DNA from: Actinomycetota bacterium
Lineage (GTDB): Bacteria > Actinomycetota > Coriobacteriia > Anaerosomatales > UBA912
Direction: 5' to 3'
DNA: 40,043 nt
NCBI GenBank assembly: GCA_018334075.1
Contig: JAGXSC010000045.1
Span: 1 to 40,043, forward strand
The notes beneath the pieces were generated by a model that worked only from the letters and a program-made list of their open reading frames with translations, made no database searches and was not told the origin of the DNA. Numbering within the stretch: the stretch's first letter is position 1; the number at the start of each line of letters is the position of its first letter. A program made the position numbers and the translations under genes. Below are positions 7,843 to 36,018 of this stretch, in pieces.

Positions 7843-8047
7843 CTTCGGAAATATCTGAGGTTGTGCTTGGCAAGAGGCTTCCGGTCCAGGACTGAATGTT
7901 TTCTAGCCCCAAGTAGTCGGCATGCTCGGAGGTTGCGTCCATTCGCTCATTTCGAAGCGGCGCAATAAATTTCAGCCGCTTTCCGACTTCATCAACCCTT
8001 CGTGTCTTCGCGCCTTCGTGTGAGGCCATCATTGCCCCCGGATTCAT
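7814..8047 (-). pseudogene. hsdS: Truncated type I restriction specificity subunit HsdS, N-terminus
   Basis: 77 aa. RLKFIAPLRNERMDA and YLGLENIQSWTGSLL match the start of the first target-recognition domain of HsdS, which is normally about 400-450 aa. After SLLPSTTSDISEGD the frame loses homology, and the last residues overlap the Fic-like fragment in another phase. Its ATG overlaps the rhuM stop (ATGA), so the original hsdM-rhuM-hsdS layout is still visible. Most of both recognition domains is gone, so it should not confer specificity. Confidence 0.6.
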
Positions 8048-9069
8048 CGTTTTTCCTTCTTCTGTTCAAGTTGTCTTTCAATCCGCTCCAGCTCCACGAT
8101 CTCCTCGGCATCGGCCTGCCTGACCTCGGCGATGCGGCGTTTTTCGTCGAAAGCGTCGAAGCATTCGCAGGCGATGCGCTCCATGGCCTCGCGCGAGACA
8201 CTGCCGGCGTGGGTGAGCACGGCCTTTTCGTTGAAGTCCAGCAACCGGTCGACATTATGCCGCCAGTAGTCGAGAGTGAGCTGCTTGCGCTCCTTCACCC
8301 GCAATTCAGCCTGTTCCAGGAAGATGACCACCAGCCGGTTGAGGGTGTCCACCTCGTCGGCGGAAAGGTAGTTCTTGGCCACGATCACATCATGCTTGCG
8401 CACCCGCGAGCCGCTCCAGTTGGTGAGTGCCATGTTGGGGGCGTCCGGGTCGGCGCGGGAGACGATGATCTCGGCGGCGGTCTGACCGGCGACGGCGAAC
8501 AGCAGCTTGTTCTGGGTTTCAGCGAAGAAGAGTTGGGCGGCACGGTCGTCGGAAGTATAGTCGGAACTGAGCGCAAAGAGGTCGCGTACCTTCTGGTAAA
8601 AACGCTTCTCCGAGGCGCGGATCTCGCGGATGCGGGCCAGCAGCTCGTCGAAGTAGTCCCAGCCGCCGGGGTTCTTGAGGCGCTCGTCGTCCATGACGAA
8701 GCCCTTGACCAGATACTCGGCCAGGTGGGCGGTGGCCCACTGGCGGAACTGGGTGCCGCGCGGCGAGCGCACCCGGTAGCCCACCGCCAGGATCATATAC
8801 AGGTTGTACAGGTAGGTCTTGCGCTGGACCCGGCGGTTGCCCTCGTTTTGAACTGTCAAGGATTCCTTGACAGTTGCCGCCTCCGGCAACTCCCCTTCCA
8901 TTAGGATGTTCTTGATGTGCAGGCTGACGTTCTGCTTGGTAGTATCGAACAGCTCGGCCATCTCGCCCTGATTCAGCCAGACGGTACCATCCAGGGTTTG
9001 CAGCTGGACTTCCGCCTGCCCATCCTCGGTACGGTAAACGATCAGCTCTCCCCGGTCCGGTGTGCTCAC
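8044..9069 (-). CDS. RhuM family (virulence protein / Fic-associated) protein
   Basis: 341 aa from GTG at 9069, overlapping the preceding stop (GTGA). The sequence is that of the RhuM family: GELIVYRTEDGQAEVQLQ, WLNQGEMAELFDTTKQNVS with an HTH-like element, then RTYLYNLYMILAVGYRVRS reads here as KTYLYNLYMILAVGYRVRS, and FRQWATAHLAEYLVKGFVMDDERL. The C-terminal part has a Fic/Doc-like stretch without an obvious HPFxxGNG motif and ends in a charged coiled-coil tail. RhuM genes commonly sit between hsdM and hsdS of type I restriction systems; the molecular function is unknown. It appears intact, unlike both neighbours, so it may have outlived the restriction system. Confidence 0.85.
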   Translation of the reverse strand: MSTPDRGELIVYRTEDGQAEVQLQTLDGTVWLNQGEMAELFDTTKQNVSLHIKNILMEGELPEAATVKESLTVQNEGNRRVQRKTYLYNLYMILAVGYRVRSPRGTQFRQWATAHLAEYLVKGFVMDDERLKNPGGWDYFDELLARIREIRASEKRFYQKVRDLFALSSDYTSDDRAAQLFFAETQNKLLFAVAGQTAAEIIVSRADPDAPNMALTNWSGSRVRKHDVIVAKNYLSADEVDTLNRLVVIFLEQAELRVKERKQLTLDYWRHNVDRLLDFNEKAVLTHAGSVSREAMERIACECFDAFDEKRRIAEVRQADAEEIVELERIERQLEQKKEKR

Positions 9070-9870: not shown

Positions 9871-10223
9871 TGGTGGAGGCGCGGAGAATCGAACTCCGGT
9901 CCACGATACACGATCGGGAAGCATCTCCAGGCTCAGTCATCAGTGAGTTCTCGGCCGGCGCATTACCTGATGACACGCGGTGCGTCGTCCATGGCGGTTC
10001 AGGCTATAAGCAACACCATACCGCCTACGTGTGCTGCAGCAGTCCCCTAAGTGGCGCCTTACCGATGACGGGGACGCTCATCGGGTCGGCGTCGCTGCAC
10101 TATTTAGGCAGCGAGGGCGTAATCATTGTCGACGTTTATGCGTCGGTACCCCTGTTTTACGAGACGAGGAGATCTCGGCCTGCTTCTTCCGTCAAGCCTA
10201 TCGTGTCGAAACCAGTCGCCCCC
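9871..10223 (-). ncRNA. ssrA: tmRNA (ssrA)
   Basis: The 5' end GGGGGCGACTGGTTTCGACA is the canonical tmRNA start, and the 3' end carries the T-loop GTTCGATTC and an encoded CCA. The acceptor stem pairs GGGGGCG (10223-10217) with CGCCTCC, giving seven pairs including one G-U. The tag frame ends DNDYALAA and stops at 10106-10104. The usual alanine resume codon is not in frame: the codons before are ATA AAC GTC, and a GCA just upstream would read directly into TAA. tmRNA with SmpB rescues stalled ribosomes and tags the nascent chain for proteolysis. smpB and rnr lie just upstream on the same strand. Its 3' end is a frequent integration site, and the defence island starts here. Confidence 0.95.
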
Positions 10224-10834: not shown

Positions 10835-12771
10835 CAGGATCCCAGTTCGAAGTCGATTCGTGCGTCGATCGTGCTGACGTTGGTAATTCTAACTGAAACA
10901 CGTTCTCCCAAACGGTACGATCGGCGTCTTTCCCGGCCGATCAGTGAGAAGCCGGCCGTATCCAGCTCATAGTAATCATCGACCATGCTCCGGACGTGCA
11001 CGAGTCCTTCGGCGGTGTTTTCAAGCTGGACAAAAAGCCCGTACGAATGCACCCCCGTGATGATGCCGTCGAAATCCTCGCCGATATGCTCGGCCATAAG
11101 CTGGGCGATCTTGAGGCGCACCGTTTCGTCCTCGGCGGCCTCGGCCTCGCGCTCCATGGTCGAAGAGTGATCGGCTATCCACTCCAGATCCTCGGCGGCG
11201 GCTAAGAGCTCCGGCGCCTTCGCTCCCTCTCTGAGCATGGCTCGAAGCAGCCTGTGAACCACCAGATCGGGGTATCGGCGGATGGGGCTCGTGAAATGTG
11301 AGTACGCGTCACTGGCGAGCCCGAAATGCGTGTCGGCGTAATCGGTGTACCGCGCTCGCTGCATCGCTCGAAGCAGAAGCGAGTTTATCAGGCGCTTTTC
11401 GGGCCGGTTGTGCGCGTACGCTATGATCCTGGCGAAGGTGGCGGGTGTCGCTCCGCGAACCTCGGTTATCGGATAGCCGAACTCCTTGAGCACAGCGGCC
11501 ACCGGCGACAGCGCATCTGGATCAGGCTCCTCGTGGATGCGGTAGACCATCGGCGCGCTGGCTTCAAGCATGTGCGCGGCAACAACCTCGTTGGCTCGGA
11601 TCATCGCCTCCTCGATCATGTTCGTCGCCTGCGTACGCTCGCGCAAGACCACCTCGAGCGGCGTGCCGTCATCGCTAAGCCTAACCTTCGCCTCGACGGT
11701 CTCGAAGTCTAGCCCGCCTCGGGCCAGGCGGCGCTTGCGTAAAAGCTCGGCGGCTCGGGCAAGCTCCTTGACGGCTTGTTCCAAATCCCGACCAGCCAGA
11801 CTCTCCTTTCCATCGAGAAAACGCTGAACTTGGTCGTAATCGAAGCGCATGTCCGACCTGATCACCGACGGAAAAAGCTCATAGCCAACAAGCGCACCGT
11901 TAGCGTCCAGATCCATCATCACCGAGAAAGCCAATCTGTCCTCGCCCGGATTCAGTGAGCACAGGTTGTTCGAAAGGTGCTCCGGGAGCATCGGCAGAAC
12001 CCTGTCGACGAGATAGACGCTTGTCCCGCGCTTGCGCGCTTCCAAATCTACGGGATCGTCCCATCTGACGTAGTGCCCGACATCGGCGATGTGAACGCCT
12101 AAGCGCAACACGCCATCTACCCGCTCGGCAGTGATCGCGTCATCGAAATCGCGGGCATCAGCGGGGTCGATCGTAAACGTGAGCTTGTCCCGAATATCTC
12201 GGCGATCCGGCTCGGCAAGCGCCTGTTCGACATCGAGCGTCTTCGATTCGGCGTGTGAAGTGACCTCAGGCGGAAACTCCGTGCGCAAGCCGTGCTGGCG
12301 GATGATGACCTCGATCTCCAGGCCGGGCGTTCCCTGAGGGCCTAAAACCTCCTCGATGACACCGGTCGCGCTTTGCTGCCGAGAAGGAAAAGCTGTTAGC
12401 CTGACAACCACGATGTCGCCAGGGCTGGCCTGGCCTGCGTCCTTGCGATGGACGAAGACGTCATGGTGAATGCGGGGGTCTACGGGAACGACCACGCCCA
12501 CCCGGGATTTGCTCTCAAAGCGCCCCACAAGGGTTTCATTCGCGCGCTCAAGGATTTTGAGTACGGCGCCGCTTCGTCCTTGCGCGGAGCGCCCGGCCTT
12601 GACCCGCACGCCAACCGTGTCGCCGTGCATCGCGCCTGCGGTCTCACGCGCACCGATATAGATGTCGCCTTCCGGCGCCGCGACAAACCCGAAGCCCTTG
12701 CGATTCATCGACAGCCGACCGACAATGAGCCCGCCGCGTCTGGCTTTGGCCAAACGTTTGCTTATAACCAC
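10834..12771 (-). CDS. rnr: Ribonuclease R
   Basis: 645 aa from GTG at 12771, with GGAGG seven nt upstream. A processive 3'-5' exoribonuclease that degrades structured RNA and works with tmRNA on stalled messages. It starts directly with a cold-shock/OB region (RGGLIVGRLSMNRKGFGFV), then the RNB catalytic domain with IDPADARDFDDA (201-212) carrying the metal-binding aspartates, and a C-terminal S1 domain (GIITGVHSYGLFVQLENTAEG). It is shorter than the E. coli enzyme (about 810 aa) because it lacks the N-terminal helix-turn-helix part and the long basic tail. It is coupled to smpB and divergent from a small plus-strand gene. Confidence 0.93.
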   Translation of the reverse strand: MVISKRLAKARRGGLIVGRLSMNRKGFGFVAAPEGDIYIGARETAGAMHGDTVGVRVKAGRSAQGRSGAVLKILERANETLVGRFESKSRVGVVVPVDPRIHHDVFVHRKDAGQASPGDIVVVRLTAFPSRQQSATGVIEEVLGPQGTPGLEIEVIIRQHGLRTEFPPEVTSHAESKTLDVEQALAEPDRRDIRDKLTFTIDPADARDFDDAITAERVDGVLRLGVHIADVGHYVRWDDPVDLEARKRGTSVYLVDRVLPMLPEHLSNNLCSLNPGEDRLAFSVMMDLDANGALVGYELFPSVIRSDMRFDYDQVQRFLDGKESLAGRDLEQAVKELARAAELLRKRRLARGGLDFETVEAKVRLSDDGTPLEVVLRERTQATNMIEEAMIRANEVVAAHMLEASAPMVYRIHEEPDPDALSPVAAVLKEFGYPITEVRGATPATFARIIAYAHNRPEKRLINSLLLRAMQRARYTDYADTHFGLASDAYSHFTSPIRRYPDLVVHRLLRAMLREGAKAPELLAAAEDLEWIADHSSTMEREAEAAEDETVRLKIAQLMAEHIGEDFDGIITGVHSYGLFVQLENTAEGLVHVRSMVDDYYELDTAGFSLIGRERRRSYRLGERVSVRITNVSTIDARIDFELGS

Positions 12772-20926: not shown

Positions 20927-23680
20927 TCAGACGTTGCTTCCGTGACACTTCTTGTACTTTTTACCACTACCGCAAGGGCAAGGATCGTTGCGCCCGGCGC
21001 CAGCGAATGGATCCGCCTTGTCCTTCACGACTGTAACCCCGCTCTTGCCCGCGCCTGCCGATGCGGCCGCCGCGGCACCCGGAGATTGCCCTGAGCCTGC
21101 TTGAGCGGCCGCCGATTGCATCGCGCCCGCGAATATAGTCTGCTCGGAAGGCGCACTGTAAACGACATCGCGCATTGAAGCCTCTGCGCTCGGCTCGGCC
21201 ACAGTGACCTGAATGTGCATGAGCGTTCTGAGAAAGTCCTCGTTTATCTGGCCGACAAGTCCCGAGAACATTTCGTACGCCTCGGCTTTGTACTCGGCGA
21301 GCGGGTCGCGCTGACCCATCGCCCGAAGCCCGATTCCATCCTTGAGGTAGTCCATCTCGAGCAAATGCTCCATCCAACGAGCGTCGATAACTCGAAGCAT
21401 CACATGACGCTCAAGCTCACGTAGTTGCTCTGCCCCCAACTCCGCCTCTTTTTGGCGGAAACGGTCGAGAGCGACGGTGATGAGCTCGTCCGACAGTTCG
21501 TAAGGGTTGCCGATCTCGGCCTTACGCTTGAGAACCTCACCGCTCAAACCCGTGACGTCTCTGTACCAGGTCTCCAGATTATCCCAATCCCACTCTTCAG
21601 AGTACGCGCGCTCGGGGCAGTAGAACAAAACGCCCTGGGTGATGACATCGGAAAACATCTCTTCGACGCGGCCATGAATATCCTTGCCGTCGAGTATCTG
21701 AGTGCGCTCGTTGTAGATAACCTCGCGCTGCTTGTTCATCACGTCGTCGTAGTCCAAGACATGCTTTCGCGCGGCAAAGTTCATAGCCTCCACCTGCCGC
21801 TGAGCGCTCTCTATCGCCTTGGACACCAGGCCGGCCTGAATTGGCACATCATCCGGTATCTGGGTGCGCTGCATCAGTGCGGAGATTCTATCCATCTTGT
21901 CCCCGCCAAACAGCCTCATGAGGTTATCTTCAAGGGAGAGGAAGAATTGCGAGACTCCCGGATCACCCTGGCGACCCGATCTACCTCGCAGCTGATTGTC
22001 TATGCGTCGCGACTCGTGACGCTCTGTGCCGAGAACCGCAAGGCCGCCCGCCTTCACCACGTCTACGTGCTCGGCATTGCAGATCCGCTTCGCTTCGAGC
22101 AAGGCGTCCTGACGATCCTGATCGCTCGCGTCTTCCGGCTGGATTCCGCGGCCTCTAAGCAGATCATCAACGAGGTACTCGGGGTTTCCGCCTAGTATGA
22201 TGTCGGTACCTCGACCCGCCATGTTGGTTGCGATGGTAACGGCGCCAAGCCGTCCCGCCTGAGCGATTATCTGCGCTTCCTGCTCGTGAAACTTAGCGTT
22301 CAGGACATTGTGTTTGACTCCACGCTTTTGAAGCATGCGCGCGAGTAGCTCAGAGTTTTCGATCGAAATGGTGCCGACAAGCACCGGCTGGCCCGCCTTG
22401 TTGCACTCAACAATCTGATTTACAACCGCGTTTAATTTCGCCTGGAAGTTTCGATAGATAGCGTCGTTACGATCATCGCGAATCATCTGTCGATGTGTGG
22501 GAATCACCATGACCGGCAGTTCATAAATGGACCGAAACTCAGCGTCTTCGGTGACTGCGGTACCCGTCATGCCTGCTAGCTTTTCATACATCCGGAAGTA
22601 GTTTTGCAGGGTTATGGTGGCTAAGGTCTGATTCTCCTCGCGAACGTGCTGCTTCTCCTTGGCCTCGATTGACTGATGAAGACCCTCCGAATATCTCCTG
22701 CCGTACATCAGGCGACCGGTGAACTCGTCGACAATGATGACCTCGCCGTCCTTGACGACGTAATCGACATCTTTCTTGAACATGAACTGCGCCTTGAGGG
22801 CCTGCTGGAGATGATTGACCATCCGGCCGCTGGGATCCGCGTACAGATCATCTATACCAAGCCACTCCTCGATCTTTGAGATCCCTGACTCGGTAGGCGC
22901 AACAGTGCGCTTGGCTTCATCAAGCTCAAAGTCAGTCTCCGCACGTAACCTCGGCACCACCTTAGCGAAAGCCTTGTAGGTGTCTGCGGATTTGGTTCCG
23001 GCGCCCGAGATGATAAGGGGTGTACGCGCTTCGTCGATGAGTATCGAGTCGACCTCGTCGACGATGGCAAAGTGATGCCCTCGCTGAACGCGATTTCCAG
23101 GCACTACAACCATGTTGTCACGAAGATAATCGAAGCCGAATTCGCTATTTGTTCCGTAAGTCACATCCGCTTGATACGCAACTTTTCTACGCGCTGGATC
23201 CATCTGTGCCTGGATAATACCGACCTCAAGTCCGAGGAAGCGGTAAACACGCCCCATCCACTCACTGTCACGCTTTGCCAGGTAGTCATTGACGGTCACA
23301 ATGTGGACCCCGTTGCCGGAGATCGCGTTGAGGTAGGCGGGCAGCGTAGCGGCGAGCGTTTTACCCTCTCCCGTCTTCATCTCAGCGATCATGCCACGGT
23401 TGAGGACCATACCGCCGATGAGCTGAACATCAAAGTGCCGCATTTCCAGTGATCTAAAAGCGGCTTCGCGACAAAGCGCAAAAGCCTCCGGCAGCAGCTC
23501 ATCAAGCGATTCACCAGCAGAGTATCTTGTCTTGAGATCGGCCGTCTTCGCCGGAAACTCATCATCTGACAGCTTCTGGACGTCGGGCTCGAGTGCATTG
23601 ATCGTCTCAACTACCGCTTCGAACTCGCGCAACTGCTTGCCCTCACCGATGGTGAGGAGCTTCGCGAGAAAATTAGCCAT
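20927..23680 (-). CDS. secA: Preprotein translocase ATPase SecA
   Basis: 917 aa, full length. Walker A MKTGEGKTLAA (101-111), DEAD-type IVDEVDSILIDEARTPLI, and the motif VI GRSGRQGDPGVSQFFLSLED. The C-terminal zinc-binding tail RNDPCPCGSGKKYKKCHG is intact, after an Ala/Gly-rich linker. It drives protein export through SecYEG and is essential. It is the first gene of a long minus-strand run (secA-prfB-PHP-yitT-transketolase) preceded by a 435-bp gap with an RNA-like element. Confidence 0.98.
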   Translation of the reverse strand: MANFLAKLLTIGEGKQLREFEAVVETINALEPDVQKLSDDEFPAKTADLKTRYSAGESLDELLPEAFALCREAAFRSLEMRHFDVQLIGGMVLNRGMIAEMKTGEGKTLAATLPAYLNAISGNGVHIVTVNDYLAKRDSEWMGRVYRFLGLEVGIIQAQMDPARRKVAYQADVTYGTNSEFGFDYLRDNMVVVPGNRVQRGHHFAIVDEVDSILIDEARTPLIISGAGTKSADTYKAFAKVVPRLRAETDFELDEAKRTVAPTESGISKIEEWLGIDDLYADPSGRMVNHLQQALKAQFMFKKDVDYVVKDGEVIIVDEFTGRLMYGRRYSEGLHQSIEAKEKQHVREENQTLATITLQNYFRMYEKLAGMTGTAVTEDAEFRSIYELPVMVIPTHRQMIRDDRNDAIYRNFQAKLNAVVNQIVECNKAGQPVLVGTISIENSELLARMLQKRGVKHNVLNAKFHEQEAQIIAQAGRLGAVTIATNMAGRGTDIILGGNPEYLVDDLLRGRGIQPEDASDQDRQDALLEAKRICNAEHVDVVKAGGLAVLGTERHESRRIDNQLRGRSGRQGDPGVSQFFLSLEDNLMRLFGGDKMDRISALMQRTQIPDDVPIQAGLVSKAIESAQRQVEAMNFAARKHVLDYDDVMNKQREVIYNERTQILDGKDIHGRVEEMFSDVITQGVLFYCPERAYSEEWDWDNLETWYRDVTGLSGEVLKRKAEIGNPYELSDELITVALDRFRQKEAELGAEQLRELERHVMLRVIDARWMEHLLEMDYLKDGIGLRAMGQRDPLAEYKAEAYEMFSGLVGQINEDFLRTLMHIQVTVAEPSAEASMRDVVYSAPSEQTIFAGAMQSAAAQAGSGQSPGAAAAASAGAGKSGVTVVKDKADPFAGAGRNDPCPCGSGKKYKKCHGSNV

Positions 23681-23742
23681 ATTTTATCCGCACCTTTTCT
23701 GGGAAGTGATTAATCGAAAGTGTCCGCGTAAAAGCGAGACAG

Positions 23743-23751
23743 ATTCTACCA
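23743..23751 (-). promoter_or_regulatory. Extended -10 promoter candidate for secA
   Basis: TGGTAGAAT on the minus strand, 63 nt upstream of the secA ATG. The same nine bases occur at 36016-36024. No good -35 is visible, as expected for an extended -10 promoter. It lies after the terminator at 23816-23860, giving secA its own transcript. Confidence 0.55.
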
Positions 23752-23815
23752 CATGAATCTGCTTACGCCTCCAACCCAAAGTAGACGAAGCTCCTACTGC
23801 GGTGGGGTCCTTCAG

Positions 23816-23860
23816 AATTAAAAACCGTGGGTGGTCGGCAGCTTCTCTCCGCCGACCACC
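23816..23860 (-). terminator. Strong Rho-independent terminator
   Basis: On the minus strand GGTGGTCGGC (23860-23851) pairs perfectly with GCCGACCACC (23839-23830) over ten bases around an 11-nt loop. CACGG and then TTTTTAAT follow within a few nt. It ends the candidate structured RNA and separates it from secA. Confidence 0.85.
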
Positions 23861-24040
23861 TCCGCTCCGACAGCACCTCGGGCCCATAAGAATCGGTCCT
23901 AAACGATGACTGGTGCCCCTCAGGAGCTCTCCCGGCTCCACACCTCACCCTACATGGCCGTACTCTTTTGCTCTGTCCCCAAACGGGGAGGCCCGACGTA
24001 CTGTCATTGCTTGACCCGGTGGCTACCGGGTCTGATAACG
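23817..24040 (-). ncRNA. Candidate structured non-coding RNA upstream of secA
   Basis: No protein frame fits this gap. A long-range helix pairs GACAGTAC-G-TCGGGCC (24005-23990) with GGCCCGA-G-GTGCTGTC (23884-23869): 15 pairs including one G-U, with one G-G mismatch. Inside it are a CCCC/GGGG hairpin (about 23979-23990), a stem-loop GGTGT+GGAGC / GCTCC+GCACC (about 23912-23944), and ATCG/CGAT (about 23894-23909). A perfect 8-bp hairpin GACCCGGT/ACCGGGTC (24032-24013) precedes it, and the terminator ends it. The 5' end is unknown. It could be a raiA-type RNA, known from Firmicutes and Actinobacteria near hpf(raiA)/comFC, or an unknown class; I cannot confirm either. A riboswitch for secA is less likely because of the intervening terminator and separate promoter. 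Confidence 0.55.
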
Positions 24041-24116
24041 ACGATAACCGATGGGTCTTACTAAAATCTAAATAATTGAGCATTTCTAAAAATATTTTAG
24101 AGTTTTCGGTAAATCC

Positions 24117-27100
24117 TCATGCAGTGGAGGCGTCTTCATCTCTCGGCTCGGATAAACGAGGTGTTCCTAGATGCTCCATCGACAGTATCTGATGGTAGAT
24201 TTGCGCCGTCTCAGAGGACGGATCCATGCCAAGATCCTCGTTCAGGCGTTTGCAAAACTTCATGTAGACCTCAATAGCGGTGCTACGTTGACCAGCGGCC
24301 GCAAGCTGCTTCATGAGGTTTTGATGAAGATCCTCACGCCATGCGTCGGCAGCCACGCCGCGCCAGGAGAACCTGAGTGCCCGGGCATTGTCACCCATTT
24401 CAGCAGCGAGCTCAGTGGCCCGCAACATTGAATCCCCAAATCCGATTCGATAGCGGTCGCGCTCATCTGTAAACCAGTCATCATACAGATCGCCCGGTAA
24501 CAACTCACCAACGTACAGCTCATCAAGGCGCTCGTAAGCTCCCAGTGCCGATTCCATATCCCCCATACGCTCTGCCGCAATCGCCTCTGACCTGAGCGCT
24601 CCGAACTCGGAGATATCCACTGAAACCAGACTCGATACCATTCGGCACATCCCGCCGACATGCTCGAGATACGGCAATGGAACTTTGCGGTCCGCTTTGG
24701 ACAGAAGTGCCGACTTCATCGCGCTCCAAATCACGTAAAGATTGTTTTGCGCTTTTTCTGAGTCTTTGTCGGGCCACAAATAATCAAAGATAATATCCAC
24801 CGGAACATCTTGCCCCTGCTTGAAGACTAGCATCGCGAATAACAGGCGCGCTTTTCGCTTCTTCCAGTCTTTCTCGCGCACACTTCTATCACCGACGCGA
24901 ACCCCCAGCCCTCCAAACATGCGAACTTTGCACATGGGGACATCTGCATCCTGCCGCTTCAACTGCTGGCGTATTCGATCGGCTGTTTCCTCACACGTAA
25001 ACCGAAGAGCAAGTTTTTTCCATGTCTTTTTCGAGCGTATAACCTCAAGGGCCGCGATAAGAGTCTTCTCGACGTCATCGGGTAGCACCATTTTTAGCAA
25101 GTACCTAGAAAGACGATCCGGATCCGCCACCTCCGAAAGTAGCCCCAGCAGGTGAGGGAATGCGCGAATATACATTCCGATCCACCAGTTCGAATACTCG
25201 CTCAAGACATATTCCGCATGAGGTGCAAGCCGTTTCCTGGCAGCGCCCAAATCGCCTTTTCGTCGGTCGCTTTCAGCCAGAATCATATCCGCGATCAGCG
25301 CATATTGAGCCGCTCCTATTTTCGTGGCGGAATCCCTAACGGATTTCGCATGCTTTTCAGCGGCTGGTGCATCTTGCAGCACCAAAAGATTAGCAGCAAA
25401 CTCCAAGGTCGCCAGCCACTCCACCCATTTACCTGAGCAACGTGTCGCGTGCTCGAGCGCTGTCTCGGAAAAGATCAGAGCCTGTTCATGCTCCCCGGCT
25501 GCACGGGTCCAGGCAGAGCGATAAGTGCACAACCTTGAGAGTTCCATCTCAAAGTTTCGGGCTTTGTTTCCATCGTATGCCTCAGTTGCCGCTATCTTAG
25601 CCTGCCCATAATCCCCTATGCCCGCCGCTGCTGTCGCCAAGTTGCTTAATTGCCAAAGCTCAACATAGGTAAGCCCATGCTTTTTTGAGGTTTTGATCGT
25701 GGATTCCGTCAGTTGCCTTGCGCGCTCAAGGCGACCAAGTTCGCAGTGTATGGCATTCAGATTGCCTTGAATGTGTATTTGCATTGTAAGAGACAGCCCT
25801 TCCATATTCAGTAACCTGGAAAGCCTCCGCCTAGTCTGTTTTAAATTTCCATACACGCTCACATCAACGAATAGTGCGTTATTTCGCACCAAAGCTTCTA
25901 CTTCCACGTGAATGTTTTTGTTGTCCGCTATCCAAATCGCCTTTTCGATATGGGGCAGACCTTTGTCCATATCCAAAAGATAGCTAAAACAAACGCCGAG
26001 ATACGCATGAGCCAATGCGCGCACATCATCGTCAACTTCCATTTCAAGAATTTTGGATAATACTTGCGTTGCCTCAGCCATAAGCGCGTCGTCCATTTGA
26101 ACGCAAACCCTCAACATCAAAGCTTCGGCCGCCAATTTTTCATTGCCCTCGGCAATGGCAAGATCATAAGCAGCGCAGGCTAAACGCAACGCGTCCTCCT
26201 TTTCAGCTTTTGCCCTCAATAGTCGCGCATTCCAGAAAAGTAATTTCGAACTTCTCGATATACCGACGGGCCCTAGACGTGAAAAAGCCATCGATAGCAA
26301 CTTGAGCTCACCTGATTCATAAAGCCTGTTTCCCGCTTTTTCCATCCACTCTGCCAGCAGCTGCAACGGGGCGCGTCGCAGTGCGAGCGCGAAAAGCGCG
26401 TCATATCTTCCTGTCGCGTCAAAATTTCCTAGTGCTCGCCGCAGCAGGTGATCAGATTGGAATCTAGTCGAGTCCGGCTGGGTAAAACATCTCTCCTCAT
26501 AGATTTCCGCAGCCAGATCATGGACGCGAAATCTGCATGTCTCTCCCGCTCCGGAAACCGTAACCAAAGGCATCAACTTTCCGAGCATCTGAATATCTGC
26601 TACTGCTGGCCTACCGACAACCGCCTCCGCCTCCTCACCGGTTCCCGATTTCAGCAACGCGCATGTATAAAGTACCGCTTTCAGACGATCGTCAAGCTGC
26701 ATATCAACCAGCTTGTTCAGATGCGCCACCAAATCTAGGGGAGCAGGCCCTGCAAACGAACCATTCTCTCCACTCTGGAAGGAGCCTAGAGCGATATGCC
26801 TGGCAAGCACACAAGCCGTTGCGGCTCTACCCGCCGATAGTTTCATCAGCTCTTCCGCGGCGCCAACGTCCACTTCACCGGTCAGGTAGCGTTTCAATAC
26901 CTGCCAGCACTCCTCCTCACTGAGCTTCAGGTGATCGGTTTGAAGCAGAGTAACCCCATCGCTCTCCTCAAATACTTCTGGTGACTCCCATCGCGTCGTC
27001 ACGATAACCCTGCTGCTGTCGAGTGTTTCGAGCATCCCGGTCAGCTCCCGAACGGCGGCCACGTCAGCTCCCACCGGCATATCATCAAGAACGACAGTGA

Positions 27101-27458
27101 CCCCCTTGCCTTCGCGAAATCGCTCGAGCGAAGATCTCACGCCCTCTACCAGATCAACTGTGTTTCGGTTGAGTATCGACGGCGCAGATCTGAGCTCGAC
27201 ACGACCCTCGCCGGCGCCAAAAAAATCATCGAGTGCAGAAAAAAGCTGCTCCCTGTTCCACTCCAACCCCGAACAGTCGAGCCAGATTACCTCCCCCTCG
27301 AATATCCCTGCAAGCTGAGAAGCCAGAACACTTTTTCCATAACCAGCCGGTGCGGCAAGGACCACAAAAGAGTCGTCCGCTTTGGCGACAGTCTCGACCA
27401 GTTTGTCTCTCGGTACAGTGCCCCGAAAACGCGAAAGGTATCTTTTCGAATAGTGCAT
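24117..27458 (-). CDS. STAND ATPase (MalT-like) with C-terminal OmpR-type wHTH and BTAD activator domain
   Basis: 1113 aa from ATG at 27458, with AGGGG upstream; GTG at 27464 is too close to it. The N-terminal NTPase has Walker A APAGYGKSVLASQ (GYGKS 39-43) and VTVVLDDMPVG as Walker B, typical of MalT/LuxR-type STAND regulators. A long TPR-like helical region follows (about 330-830). The C-terminus has a winged helix (VRMFGGLGVRVGDRSVREKD, then RKARLLFAMLVFKQG) and a bacterial transcriptional activator domain (LYVGELLPGDLYDDWFTDER, then SWRGVAADAWREDLHQNLMK). Such proteins activate transcription on ligand and ATP binding. The MalT-like body thus carries a SARP-like effector rather than a LuxR HTH. 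The target is unknown; the neighbouring membrane operon is a candidate. Confidence 0.88.
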   Translation of the reverse strand: MHYSKRYLSRFRGTVPRDKLVETVAKADDSFVVLAAPAGYGKSVLASQLAGIFEGEVIWLDCSGLEWNREQLFSALDDFFGAGEGRVELRSAPSILNRNTVDLVEGVRSSLERFREGKGVTVVLDDMPVGADVAAVRELTGMLETLDSSRVIVTTRWESPEVFEESDGVTLLQTDHLKLSEEECWQVLKRYLTGEVDVGAAEELMKLSAGRAATACVLARHIALGSFQSGENGSFAGPAPLDLVAHLNKLVDMQLDDRLKAVLYTCALLKSGTGEEAEAVVGRPAVADIQMLGKLMPLVTVSGAGETCRFRVHDLAAEIYEERCFTQPDSTRFQSDHLLRRALGNFDATGRYDALFALALRRAPLQLLAEWMEKAGNRLYESGELKLLSMAFSRLGPVGISRSSKLLFWNARLLRAKAEKEDALRLACAAYDLAIAEGNEKLAAEALMLRVCVQMDDALMAEATQVLSKILEMEVDDDVRALAHAYLGVCFSYLLDMDKGLPHIEKAIWIADNKNIHVEVEALVRNNALFVDVSVYGNLKQTRRRLSRLLNMEGLSLTMQIHIQGNLNAIHCELGRLERARQLTESTIKTSKKHGLTYVELWQLSNLATAAAGIGDYGQAKIAATEAYDGNKARNFEMELSRLCTYRSAWTRAAGEHEQALIFSETALEHATRCSGKWVEWLATLEFAANLLVLQDAPAAEKHAKSVRDSATKIGAAQYALIADMILAESDRRKGDLGAARKRLAPHAEYVLSEYSNWWIGMYIRAFPHLLGLLSEVADPDRLSRYLLKMVLPDDVEKTLIAALEVIRSKKTWKKLALRFTCEETADRIRQQLKRQDADVPMCKVRMFGGLGVRVGDRSVREKDWKKRKARLLFAMLVFKQGQDVPVDIIFDYLWPDKDSEKAQNNLYVIWSAMKSALLSKADRKVPLPYLEHVGGMCRMVSSLVSVDISEFGALRSEAIAAERMGDMESALGAYERLDELYVGELLPGDLYDDWFTDERDRYRIGFGDSMLRATELAAEMGDNARALRFSWRGVAADAWREDLHQNLMKQLAAAGQRSTAIEVYMKFCKRLNEDLGMDPSSETAQIYHQILSMEHLGTPRLSEPRDEDASTA

Positions 27459-27509
27459 GCCCACCGCCCCTACTAATGAGTCTCCCCAACATGCATCATT
27501 ACCTATCAG

Positions 27510-27538
27510 TCATAACAAAATCCAACTAATTTTTGCAA
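27510..27538 (-). promoter_or_regulatory. Promoter candidate for the STAND/BTAD regulator
   Basis: Minus-strand TTGCAA (27538-27533), 17-nt spacer, TTATGA (27515-27510). It overlaps the last codons of the DUF5317 gene and lies about 50 nt before the regulator start. Confidence 0.4.
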
Positions 27539-28083
27539 TCATCAAACTGATCATGCATAGCTGCGAAAATATATACCCCCAAACCAAACGACATATACAC
27601 ATCTCCTATGCTGACGATGTTTCCCGAATCTCCGGGTCCGGGCACCGGCAGCACATCGCCGAGCCATAACAAAGATGTACCCATTTCGGCCGGAACGTGG
27701 AGCCACGATTGATCCAGCGCGGCATAAACCACTTGCGCTTGGCTGGATATCATCGCAGCATTTGCCGTTAGTACCGGCATCCCGCCATTCACAGCGATTA
27801 CCACAATATTGAGTGCAAGGCCCAATGCGACAAGCGCAAAACCCGGCTCGCGGACGTTCCAAAGCGATATCGCGAGACAGCCTAAAGCCGGGATCATCCA
27901 AAAAACGTACAGTAAAATCGATTCGGGCAACTCCACCGGAATCCCCGTCGCCACAAGCTGAATAAACAGAAGCACAATAAATATCTCGATCCCCCGCAGC
28001 CGATGGTGGGCCAACGCGCCGAACTTTCCTTTGGTGATAAGGCCCAGCGCGATGCCGAGAAGCATTCCGATAATAAGAATCAT
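27526..28083 (-). CDS. DUF5317 membrane protein
   Basis: 185 aa with about five membrane segments (ILIIGMLLGIALGLITKG; IFIVLLFIQLVATGIPVEL; ILLYVFWMIPALGCLAISLW; FALVALGLALNIVVIAVNGG; and a C-terminal VSIGDVYMSFGLGVYIFAAM). The NGGMPVL motif and the GDVxxSFGxGVYIF end are those of DUF5317, a family of unknown function seen mainly in Actinobacteria. Its ATG overlaps the upstream HD gene stop (ATGA), placing it last in the three-gene HD operon. Confidence 0.8.
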   Translation of the reverse strand: MILIIGMLLGIALGLITKGKFGALAHHRLRGIEIFIVLLFIQLVATGIPVELPESILLYVFWMIPALGCLAISLWNVREPGFALVALGLALNIVVIAVNGGMPVLTANAAMISSQAQVVYAALDQSWLHVPAEMGTSLLWLGDVLPVPGPGDSGNIVSIGDVYMSFGLGVYIFAAMHDQFDDCKN

Positions 28084-29267
28084 CGCCTACCCCCGTAAGC
28101 CAGCCCAGCCTCAAGGGCATTCAGAACACTTTCAGAGTGCCCGGCCGGATCTCTTTGTCGCATGATGGAGATGCGCTCAGCTGTAGGCACGCCCCTGGCT
28201 GCGAGATCATCATAGTGTGAGGCGACCCTCACGATCTGCGCCAACAAGAACTTGTCCACCTCGACCTCAAGGGCAAACTTCGACTCCCTGCCCTGAAGTA
28301 ACAGTACCGGCGCAAGATCACTAAGAAACTCGACTTTTGAGAGCATTTCGGCTCCGCGGGACGCAACAGTATCGGAGCTCTCGTGGACGCTGCCATCCAC
28401 CCTTGCTTCCAGCCCTAACCTGCCGATGTCATGCAAGAGAGCGGCTGTCGTGAGCCGCTCCATCAACTCTCCGCTCAGACCAAGCTGACGGCCGATCAAG
28501 GCGGAAAGCTCCGCTGTACGCTCGGCATGCCCGCTTCTGGCTGGGTGTTGCATTTCGGGGATGTGCGCGAGCGCCGAGATGGTGTGCATATATGCCGAGC
28601 GCAAGCCGAGAAGCAGAGTGAAGCTGTGCTGCATAATCACCATTAGGGCCACAAGGATAAAAACCGCGAAATCACCTAGCCCCGGATAGATCAGCACCAT
28701 AACAATTGCAATCGATATCTGCGAGAGATAGAGCGTACCGACAGTTCGGACGATCCCATTAAAAGCATCGCGGATCCGAGAAAATCCATACCTTCCTTCG
28801 AAAATCAAGAACCCAACAATATCCACTAAGGCATAAACTACCCCAGATAAACCGCCCAAAAGAAAAAGTTGCAAGTGCCCGAGGGGGAAACCCGAACCCA
28901 AAAACGCAATGCTAAACAGCAGAGCCAGGCCATATATAACTATCACGCGCCTGAATAGATCAAAAAACCACATACGCGATATGTCGGTGGGCTTTACTAA
29001 AACCAGGGCCACCGCCGACCCCAAAGCCGCGGTCAAGGTTGCGACTTCGGGTGAGAGCAGCATCATGGCTCCGACGGCCGCTCCTACGTCGATTCCGAGT
29101 TTGCCGCCGCGAGTCAAAGCCAATGGCAAGAGATTGAATACCGCAATACCACCAGCAAGTAATAGTGATGTCAGCAGCCTGATATCAGGCCCGATAAACT
29201 CCATCACAAGCAAGGCCGTCAGCGATCCGATGGCTATGACAGTCCCTGACGCCCTTGCGCTAAACAT
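28080..29267 (-). CDS. Membrane-anchored degenerate HD-GYP-like protein
   Basis: 395 aa from ATG at 29267 (GGAGAG seven nt upstream), overlapping the previous stop by eight nt. About six membrane helices fill residues 5-210, then an HD domain with GHAERTAELSALIGRQLGLS and LLHDIGRLGLEA. The second half of the HD-GYP signature is missing: LLLQGRESKF stands where HHExxDGxGYP is expected, so cyclic-di-GMP hydrolysis of the usual kind is doubtful. The downstream helices fit an HD-GYP fold (DKFLLAQIVRVASHYDDLAA). It may act as a regulatory partner of the intact paralogue encoded just upstream. Confidence 0.83.
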   Translation of the reverse strand: MFSARASGTVIAIGSLTALLVMEFIGPDIRLLTSLLLAGGIAVFNLLPLALTRGGKLGIDVGAAVGAMMLLSPEVATLTAALGSAVALVLVKPTDISRMWFFDLFRRVIVIYGLALLFSIAFLGSGFPLGHLQLFLLGGLSGVVYALVDIVGFLIFEGRYGFSRIRDAFNGIVRTVGTLYLSQISIAIVMVLIYPGLGDFAVFILVALMVIMQHSFTLLLGLRSAYMHTISALAHIPEMQHPARSGHAERTAELSALIGRQLGLSGELMERLTTAALLHDIGRLGLEARVDGSVHESSDTVASRGAEMLSKVEFLSDLAPVLLLQGRESKFALEVEVDKFLLAQIVRVASHYDDLAARGVPTAERISIMRQRDPAGHSESVLNALEAGLAYGGRR

Positions 29268-30543
29268 TTGCCGGCTCTCCCACTCCTCGACGCACTGTGG
29301 CAGGAGCGATCGCCCCTTCGTTGATCGCGGCGACAAAGGCCTCCACGCATTTAGGGTCAAGGTGACTAGGGACAGAGTTCCTCAACTCCTGAATCGCCTC
29401 GTCCAATGAGAGAGTTTCCCGGTATGGCCTCAAGGAAGTGATCGCATCGAAAGTATCGGCGACCATAATTATGCGGGCACCTAAGGGTATCTCGTCACCC
29501 TTTAGCCCCATCGGATAACCTTTACCATCGAGACGCTCGTGGTGCGCGGCGATCAGCGGAATGACGTCACGCAAGAACTCTACTTCCTCCAATATCTCAA
29601 CCGCTATCGCGGGATGCTCCCTTATCTCGCAATATTCCTCGTCGCTCAACTCTCCCTGTTTGCACAGAGTCTCCCCCCGGACAATCACCTTGCCGATGTC
29701 GTGCAGCAATGCGGCCCACTCGATGCGCTGCACTTCGAACTCTCGCAAGCCTAAATGCTGACACACTGCTCGCGCGTAAGCCGCTACTCTTTCGGTGTGC
29801 CCGCTTGTGTACTTGTCCTTCACTTCTATCGCCGCTACCAGCGAGCGAACAGTATCCAAATACGCCGCCTGACGCTGCTGATAGATCATGAAGGTCTGTC
29901 TGGACACCAGGAAGGGAGCGATCAGTAATACGAGATACGCGAATCCCGCGAGTGCCACAAGTTTTGCGATTACGAGTCCCAGCAACGCTAGTGGAAGCAG
30001 CCCTCGTATATAATGCAACGCATCGGATGCAATTGCTCTGAACTGAGATTTGGTCACTAACCGGATCGCGATTACAACAAGCCCTACGTTTATTGCTGTA
30101 TACGTTACAGCCGTAAGTAGCACCAGTAACAGCCAAATCCAAATGTCAACACCTATCTGCGGTTCGAAGTATAGCGGCACGCCCCCCATGCCCAAATAGA
30201 CACTTCCCGCAACTGCCGCCGCTATTCCAAGCTGCGACATATTGAAAATAATTTGATAGAGTGGCTTGCCGCTAGCCAAGTCCCTGGAGGTTACCGATCC
30301 AGCAATCGCAACCATTACGCCTAGCTCAGGTCCGCCTAGCAAAATCGCAGCAAGGCAAATTGCAAACGCCAGTGACACGCTGCCGCCGTTCGGCAACTTA
30401 TAAGTAAGCATTTCAGCAACAAAACACACTGCACCAAGCAGCAACACTAGCAGCCAGTCAATACGGCCAGGCGAGCTATATAACCAATAGAGCATCAGCA
30501 CTGCCGCGAATGTAACTAGATGGAAGTAGGCACGGATCAGCAT
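29260..30543 (-). CDS. Membrane HD-GYP domain phosphodiesterase
   Basis: 427 aa from ATG at 30543, preceded by GGGGGTAGG. The N-terminal half has about seven membrane helices (MASE-like sensor). Residues about 235-415 form a complete HD-GYP domain: YTSGHTERVAAYARAV, LLHDIGKVIV, and AAHHERLDGKGYPMGLKGDE, followed by ARIIMVADTFDAITSLRPYR. HD-GYP proteins hydrolyse cyclic di-GMP (some cGAMP) at a di-metal site. It is the first gene of a three-gene operon with the degenerate paralogue and DUF5317. Confidence 0.92.
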   Translation of the reverse strand: MLIRAYFHLVTFAAVLMLYWLYSSPGRIDWLLVLLLGAVCFVAEMLTYKLPNGGSVSLAFAICLAAILLGGPELGVMVAIAGSVTSRDLASGKPLYQIIFNMSQLGIAAAVAGSVYLGMGGVPLYFEPQIGVDIWIWLLLVLLTAVTYTAINVGLVVIAIRLVTKSQFRAIASDALHYIRGLLPLALLGLVIAKLVALAGFAYLVLLIAPFLVSRQTFMIYQQRQAAYLDTVRSLVAAIEVKDKYTSGHTERVAAYARAVCQHLGLREFEVQRIEWAALLHDIGKVIVRGETLCKQGELSDEEYCEIREHPAIAVEILEEVEFLRDVIPLIAAHHERLDGKGYPMGLKGDEIPLGARIIMVADTFDAITSLRPYRETLSLDEAIQELRNSVPSHLDPKCVEAFVAAINEGAIAPATVRRGVGEPANV

Positions 30544-31645: not shown

Positions 31646-32200
31646 TCAGCTAACGCGCGGCTCTATCAGGCCATAATCCCCGTCCTTGCGACGATACAAA
31701 ACATTGACCGCCTCCGTTTCGGCGGATGTAAACACAAAAAAGTCATGGCCCAACAGCTCGAGTTGGAGTATCGCCTCTTCAGGCATCATCGGCTTTACAT
31801 TGAGCACCTTGGTCTTGACGATGCTGGGCTGCGCTTCCTCGTAGGTATCGCTCTCCACTGGCACCAATTGAGTTGAAGCCGCCCGCTTGCCGAGATGCCT
31901 GTCGAGCACCTTGCCCTTGTACTTGCGAAATTGGCGCTCCAACTTCTCTGACACAAGGTCGATCGCGGCATACATGTCAGAAGCGGCCTCTTTGGCGCGA
32001 ATGACAGGGCCCTTCGTCCAAACAGTGACCTCCGCGACATGATTTTTGCCGATGGAGGGGTTCTTCTCCACATAAAGCTCGACTTCGGCCCGCACATGGT
32101 CGCCATCGATGATTTTGGCGTTTCGGCCGATCTTGTCGTGCGCGTACTCGCGAATAGCGTCTGTTACCACCATATGCCGACCCTTGATTACCATGTCCAT
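31646..32200 (-). CDS. hpf: Long-form ribosome hibernation promoting factor
   Basis: 184 aa from ATG at 32200, with AGGAGGT five nt upstream (MDMVIKGRHMVV); the longer frame upstream is not needed. The N-terminal RaiA/YfiA domain (VTDAIREYAHDKIGR, then VRAEVELYVEKNPSIGKNHV) binds the decoding centre. The linker leads to the C-terminal dimerisation domain (LNVKPMMPEEAILQLELLGHDFFVF, with AVNVLYRRKDGDYGLI), the mark of long HPF that forms 100S ribosomes. In many Gram-positives it lies next to secA and comFC; here both are within 9 kb but separated by other genes. Confidence 0.95.
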   Translation of the reverse strand: MDMVIKGRHMVVTDAIREYAHDKIGRNAKIIDGDHVRAEVELYVEKNPSIGKNHVAEVTVWTKGPVIRAKEAASDMYAAIDLVSEKLERQFRKYKGKVLDRHLGKRAASTQLVPVESDTYEEAQPSIVKTKVLNVKPMMPEEAILQLELLGHDFFVFTSAETEAVNVLYRRKDGDYGLIEPRVS

Positions 32201-32241
32201 AAGGTACCTCCTATAACTACAGCGACGGGCTTGATTAAATG

Positions 32242-32278
32242 AAGACACCCATAACCATGCCGTTTATGGGCGCGTCTT
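32242..32278 (-). promoter_or_regulatory. Imperfect hairpin in the hpf leader
   Basis: Minus-strand AAGAC-CCCATAA pairs with TTATGGG-GTCTT (outer five and inner seven pairs; a small asymmetric internal loop; a 9-nt apical loop). It lies 38 nt after the glnQ-type gene stop and 41 nt before the hpf start. There is no proper T-run, so it may be a weak terminator of the transporter operon or a leader element of hpf. Confidence 0.5.
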
Positions 32279-35717: not shown

Positions 35718-36018
35718 AGCTCACAACCTCTCGCAAAGTCCATAAATACCGTCATTCAGTAAGTGCTCTCACCCGGCTGACCTGGTCTTTGACCCCACAC
35801 TCGCGTACCGGGACTTTCGCTCGATGCAATCTCACTAACGATCCTCTCGCCCCTGAACCGCGGGATGCGGTCCTAACGGGCGGTACGACTTACCCCTAAG
35901 ACGCGCCATGCTCGCGCGACGAAACCGCCGGCTTACGTGGGTCCTTTCGGCCGCGTCTACCATGGACTTGGGCGCGATAGCGCCCTCAACCACAGACCCG
36001 GGTGGGAGCATAGTGATT
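35718..36018 (-). other. Gene-free 301-bp gap with RNA-like secondary structure
   Basis: No protein frame with a ribosome site. An extended -10 at its start would make a transcript. On the minus strand several helices are visible: GGGCGC/GCGCCC with a 4-nt loop (about 35969-35984); AGACGCG/CGCGTCT (about 35955-35961 with 35900-35906); CGCCC enclosing a GGACCGC/GCGGTTC hairpin with GGGCG (about 35848-35885); CCCGG/CCGGG enclosing GGTC-AAA-GACC (about 35773-35814); and TTAGTGAG/CTTACTGA (about 35756-35763 with 35831-35838). There is no terminator, so it could be a long leader of the downstream binding-protein gene or a stand-alone RNA. The raiA RNA of clostridia lies between comFC and hpf, and this is also just after comFC. 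Confidence 0.4.

Follow-up and report, generated by a model that had tools for sequence, protein, structure and literature searches.

What does the gap upstream of secA encode in this stretch of 40,043 nucleotides (hereafter the window) from a member of the bacterial order Anaerosomatales? The original prediction had placed a discrete, structured RNA roughly 200 nt long there, within the limits 23816-24040, and had suggested a link to raiA RNA. On the minus strand, from about 23825 to 24036, the gap holds a strongly folded RNA (z -5.8) that lies between secA and the gene of an AfsR/SARP-like regulator, in the following surroundings:

20927-23680, minus strand: secA (Pfam SecA domains)
24117-27464, minus strand: large SARP/AfsR-like regulator gene (Pfam BTAD, 8e-20; AfsR in PDB, 3.7e-7; MalT and AfsR models)
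27526-28083, minus strand: DUF5317 membrane protein gene, a syntenic neighbour (Pfam; synteny)

The regulator consists of a MalT-like ATPase part followed by a C-terminal module with OmpR-type DNA-binding and BTAD domains. We also observed two HD-domain proteins, one of the MASE9 HD-GYP type, at 28080-30543 on the minus strand, conserved in the block across the order beside DUF5317 and the SARP regulator.

The 241-nt region folds with a predicted energy of -115.4 kcal/mol, compared with -86.0 ± 5.0 kcal/mol for dinucleotide shuffles (z -5.84, 0/200). Its fold comprises a 5′ hairpin, a long-range helix of 15 pairs, a three-way junction and an apical hairpin, with a terminator at the 3′ end. The helix that had been claimed between 24005-23990 and 23884-23869 was confirmed, its 16 positions holding 15 standard pairs (one of them U-G) and one G-G mismatch; the hairpin expected ahead of it is present in the fold at 24032-24013, and behind it, at 23860-23830, stands a terminator-like hairpin of 12 pairs, followed by a run of T. 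Across homologues the architecture is conserved as a P0 hairpin, a P1 closing helix in two segments, a P2 hairpin, a variable P3 and an invariant apical hairpin, in which a GGGAGA loop and a UGAGGGG bulge (CUCCUGAGGGG) are near-invariant. The ends of the RNA were inferred from its promoter (-10 at 24046-24041, with a transcription start near 24034-24036) and its terminator, and they agree with the limits of the original prediction. The parts of the RNA are:

23825-24036, minus strand: structured RNA, inferred transcript (fold z -5.84; covariance model matches in 56 genomes; covariation)
24013-24032, minus strand: 5′ hairpin P0, GACCCGGUAGCCACCGGGUC (fold; hairpin at the same place in several homologue groups)
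23990-24005, minus strand: P1 long-range closing helix, 5′ strand (covariation in the larger alignment: 11 modelled P1 pairs, all changed on both sides)
23976-23989, minus strand: P2 short hairpin (3/3 modelled pairs changed on both sides)
23912-23944, minus strand: invariant apical core GGUGUGGAGCCGGGAGAGCUCCUGAGGGGCACC with GGGAGA loop and UGAGGGG bulge (near-invariant in all homologues; complements the regulator mRNA leader in most relatives)
23869-23884, minus strand: P1, 3′ strand (same covariation test as the 5′ strand)
23830-23860, minus strand: terminator-like hairpin of 12 pairs, then U-rich tail CACGGTTTTT (strong hairpin after P1 in most homologues)

No conserved reading frame was found in the RNA: its longest sense ORFs are no longer than those of shuffled sequence, and in none of the three frames is the span length constant among relatives. 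As had been stated for the whole region, no protein frame explains it, and a small afsS-like protein in place of an RNA was rejected for lack of a conserved frame.

The RNA was searched for by its sequence and by a covariance model. The DNA search found the near-invariant 33-nt core GGUGNGGAGNCGGGAGANCUCCUGAGGGGCACC in 27 of 61 genomes; in one further case (G050) only the terminator hairpin matched (query 186-217), and the covariance model found the RNA elsewhere in that genome. The model, built from 15 sequences, detected the RNA in 56 of the 398 genomes of the class, all 56 belonging to the window's order (about 69 searched), Anaerosomatales being the same as OPB41 (PMC9686372). About 329 genomes of the class from outside the order gave no match to the model, and in a phylum sample the matches were again confined to the order. 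Among the 13 order genomes without a match, the start of secA went unmatched in 10; in one the contig stops just short of secA, and another has an unusual, divergent secA where its contig ends; in the last (G018) the upstream sequence is present, without the RNA and without the regulator. The core occurs in named records of metagenome assemblies labelled Coriobacteriia or Anaerosomatales and in EMTCatB1, some of the labels looking wrong. The sole match outside the class, in Nocardioides, comprises only 25 nt of the core and was taken as chance; viral contigs did not contain the core pattern.

The pairing is supported by covariation. In the first alignment 96.5% of the paired cells were standard and the covariation was 0.417, against 0.187 in shuffled alignments; no structure model was used to fit this alignment, though it is the one from which the structure was read. 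In the larger alignment of 57 distinct sequences, which was fitted to the structure and so favours it, 17 of 23 pairs had changed on both sides, with a covariation of 0.456 compared with 0.199 for shuffled alignments and at most 0.121 for slid controls. The check for compensatory changes proposed with the original prediction also came out in its favour: when changes were counted by parsimony on a tree of SecA, pairing survived about 62 both-side changes and was broken by 2, while in slid pairings it survived 3-5. Fold and covariation together strongly support the discrete RNA with its own terminator that had been proposed.

The RNA was then compared with known families. No Rfam 15 family reached its gathering score in the window region or in 14 homologous loci, and relaxed E-values (up to E = 10 in the window region) gave no relevant family match. 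The comparison with 6S RNA (RF00013) that had been recommended gave no match here, and separate 6S candidates were found in 35 of 41 genomes, including that of the window (G000:C3, a weak one below the gathering score). The bacterial SRP RNA (RF00169) was rejected likewise, having no match here and a separate gene in 28 of 31 genomes, the window's among them, and so was tmRNA, which in the window is a separate gene at 9871-10223. This tmRNA, on the minus strand, encodes the tag peptide VDNDYALAA. A search of a paper library found no earlier description of the RNA. By comparative sequence analysis, the approximately 210-nt RNA is a real, new and order-wide structured RNA family.

SARP targets carry direct repeats 11 or 22 bp apart that end just before the -10 element, and the -35 of afsS, TTCAGC, resembles the repeat seen here (PMC10936776). 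The promoter of the RNA comprises:

24068-24073, minus strand: upstream SARP-type repeat, ATTTAG (11 bp before the second repeat)
24057-24062, minus strand: second SARP-type repeat (downstream), AGTAAG, 10 nt from the -10 (same geometry as the afsS promoter, PMC10936776)
24041-24046, minus strand: -10 element TATCGT of the RNA promoter (TANNNT conserved at fixed spacing in homologues)

Among the homologues the repeats read G(G/T)T(A/T/C)AG and have a spacing of 11 or 22 bp, and 10 nt separate the last one from TANNNT. With at least 5/6 matches demanded in each of two repeats, such a promoter precedes the RNA in 49 of 57 loci, including the window, where shuffled sets average 0.045 and the downstream sequence gives 0/57; these counts are somewhat favoured by a repeat consensus read from the same loci, the spacing being the published SARP rule and not freely chosen. 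The window's box, ATTTAG-ATTTT-AGTAAG-10 nt-TATCGT, is the sole one of its kind in 40 kb, and its repeats fit the consensus less well (5/6 each) than those of most relatives. Genome-wide, the exact pattern gave 26 matches in 63 genomes, most of them at the RNA promoter, and none in a reversed control. Three genomes have matches within a transporter gene; these track conserved codons and were not counted as sites. Further SARP-type boxes were seen before genes predicted to encode secreted or small membrane proteins (L160, L165, L170, L181 and L176), which are possible regulon members. Judging from the promoter repeats, it is very probably the SARP regulator next door that controls the RNA: this regulator, whose C-terminal module matches AfsR, would bind the 11/22-bp repeats and recruit RNA polymerase to the RNA promoter, like AfsR at afsS.

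The surroundings of the RNA are stable, nearly all loci containing DUF5317 and the regulator (in either order), the RNA, secA, prfB and ftsEX. The RNA can nevertheless be separated from either neighbour, since secA is 1.4 kb away in G030 and the regulator 2.7-2.9 kb away in G005 and G016, and in G033 two copies (7914-8054 and 11409-11549 of locus L127) lie on either side of the regulator gene, both with a SARP-type promoter of their own. Most of the sampled Coriobacteriales genomes have the regulator beside secA but lack the RNA, and it was not found in 20 regulator regions of other orders of the class, most with secA adjoining. An AfsR-like regulator beside secA is therefore an arrangement common to Coriobacteriia, while the RNA occurs in one order only. 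In one Coriobacteriales locus (L203, G391) the stretch between the regulator and secA has a SARP-type box and, possibly, another kind of RNA that ends in a terminator, but no recognisable core.

In most genomes the 60 nt before the regulator start are complementary to the apical core, with a mean z of -2.34 ± 0.25 over 42 loci, whereas the complementarity of the secA, DUF5317 and ftsEX leaders is not above that of shuffles (z about 0). The match first emerged in an exploratory comparison of eight genes with three RNA fragments each, and the later tests were designed as checks on it; the genomes in all these tests are related, so that the standard errors are too small. The longest exact complement in the regulator leaders averages 7.8 nt, with a maximum of 13 nt, compared with 5.46 nt in shuffled controls (highest shuffled mean 5.83), and these complements mostly lie at -28 to -36. 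With the window's family excluded, the leader region -48 to -22 gave a z of -1.95 ± 0.23 against shuffled RNA and of -2.24 against shuffled leaders, and the control region -110 to -61 a z of about 0. In the RNA-lacking Coriobacteriales, where start codons are less certain, the regulator leaders showed nothing (6.06 vs 5.88).

Many of the leaders read CCCUCAGGAG-n-UCUCCC-loop-GGGGGAG-start, and the putative leader-side partner of the RNA bulge in the relatives is CCCUCAGG. Part of the complementarity could belong to a leader hairpin masking the Shine-Dalgarno sequence and not to pairing with the RNA; the RNA could also compete with this hairpin. When the target was blocked, the predicted accessibility of the ribosome site shifted without a clear change (p = 0.06). 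The leader match is absent from the window's genome and from L105 and L106 of its family, and also from L108 and L114. A SARP box stands before the regulator itself in three of the five match-less loci (L105, L106 and L114) and in 0 of 37 others, which suggests, given the small numbers, two alternative feedback routes, one mediated by the RNA and one by direct autoregulation. Another member of the window's family, G002 (L185), also has a SARP box before the regulator and a regulator leader without complementarity to the RNA; the RNA itself was not found in this genome. Together these loci suggest that RNA-mediated autoregulation was exchanged for the direct kind. On the evidence of complementarity, most of the order offers good support for pairing between the RNA and the regulator mRNA, but the window's family does not.

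Taken as a whole, these results make it probable that the locus encodes a standalone regulatory RNA that the SARP regulator activates and that, in most of the order, acts back on the mRNA of this regulator. The leader complementarity suggests that in those genomes the GGGAGA loop and the bulge CUCCUGAGGGG would pair with CCCUCAGGAG...UCUCCC in the 5′ leader of this mRNA, just upstream of the regulator's Shine-Dalgarno sequence, which would close a feedback loop of either sign. In the window's family, where there is no leader match and close relatives have a SARP box ahead of the regulator, the RNA probably has other targets. A more specific circuit, which we put forward tentatively and hold at somewhat less than an even chance, would be a closed one: the SARP regulator switches on the RNA, the invariant tip of which pairs with the regulator leader and possibly frees the ribosome-binding site, and the lineages without the pairing, the window's family among them, use the SARP box at the regulator instead.

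Three other explanations were weighed against a SARP-activated regulatory RNA. That the RNA is a member or a diverged copy of raiA RNA, as the original prediction had suggested, was rejected: a raiA RNA and an hpf gene do occur in the same neighbourhood, but the RF03072 model has no match within 23650-24150 at E up to 10 and none in the homologous loci of relatives, the fold and the core differ, and this genome's true raiA RNA is encoded separately, elsewhere in the window (35768-36006, minus strand; 166.5 bits). This latter gene has an extended -10 (TGGTAGAAT) and no SARP repeats, and lies about 3.5 kb from the hpf-type (S30AE) gene at 31646-32248. It is also improbable that the RNA works as a cis-regulatory leader of secA, with the SARP promoter reading through it and the terminator setting the readthrough in response to a ligand or protein. 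The RNA is always upstream of secA and co-oriented with it, usually at a distance of 250-350 nt, and a terminator-like hairpin follows it. Between this terminator and the secA start, however, 47 of 57 loci have an extended -10, TGNTA(G/C/T)AAT, so that secA is most likely transcribed from a separate promoter beyond the RNA; in the window this is:

23743-23751, minus strand: extended -10 TGGTAGAAT, probable promoter of secA itself, beyond the RNA terminator (motif in relatives)

Against a secA leader also speak the distance in G030, the second copy in G033, which is 3.8 kb from secA, the lack of overlap between P1 and the terminator, with no antiterminator apparent in the fold, and a secA leader that is not complementary to the RNA.

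The remaining explanation, that of a protein-binding scaffold or sponge working like 6S, Ms1 or CsrB, with the purine-rich loop and bulge sequestering a protein and the leader match being secondary, seems to us unlikely, though less so than the other two. It would account for the near-invariance of the loop and bulge sequence and for a family, the window's own, without a leader target; it fits poorly with a leader complementarity that has a fixed position in most relatives and is absent where the RNA is absent, with a single GGA-type loop in place of many, and with a 6S RNA encoded elsewhere in the genome. We retain the SARP-activated regulatory RNA as the preferred reading. What the analysis contributes is an RNA family that had no annotation, is backed by covariation, is spread over an entire bacterial order and shows a clear promoter logic. 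SARP regulators are familiar as activators of antibiotic genes; if our reading is correct, a structured RNA as the partner gene of a SARP regulator, possibly controlling that very regulator, would represent a new use of this regulator type.

The closest parallel to the promoter side of the circuit is afsR-afsS of Streptomyces, in which afsS encodes a small protein, unlike the structured RNA without a conserved frame produced here. Both systems have a large, ATPase-containing SARP regulator and a target promoter with 11/22-bp direct repeats ending just before a poor -10 (PMC10936776). The SARP module is N-terminal in AfsR and C-terminal in this regulator. OmrA and OmrB are feedback small RNAs that act with ompR, and resemble the proposed circuit in that an RNA activated by a factor pairs with the mRNA leader of that same factor; they are not homologous to the RNA described here, which is larger and more structured and for which the pairing applies to most of the order and not to the window's family. 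raiA RNA (RF03072, ModT in C. difficile) is similarly a structured RNA of about 200 nt found in Actinomycetota near hpf, but it shares no sequence or structure match with this RNA, and 6S RNA (RF00013), another standalone structured RNA of similar size, differs from it in having its own candidate gene in this genome.
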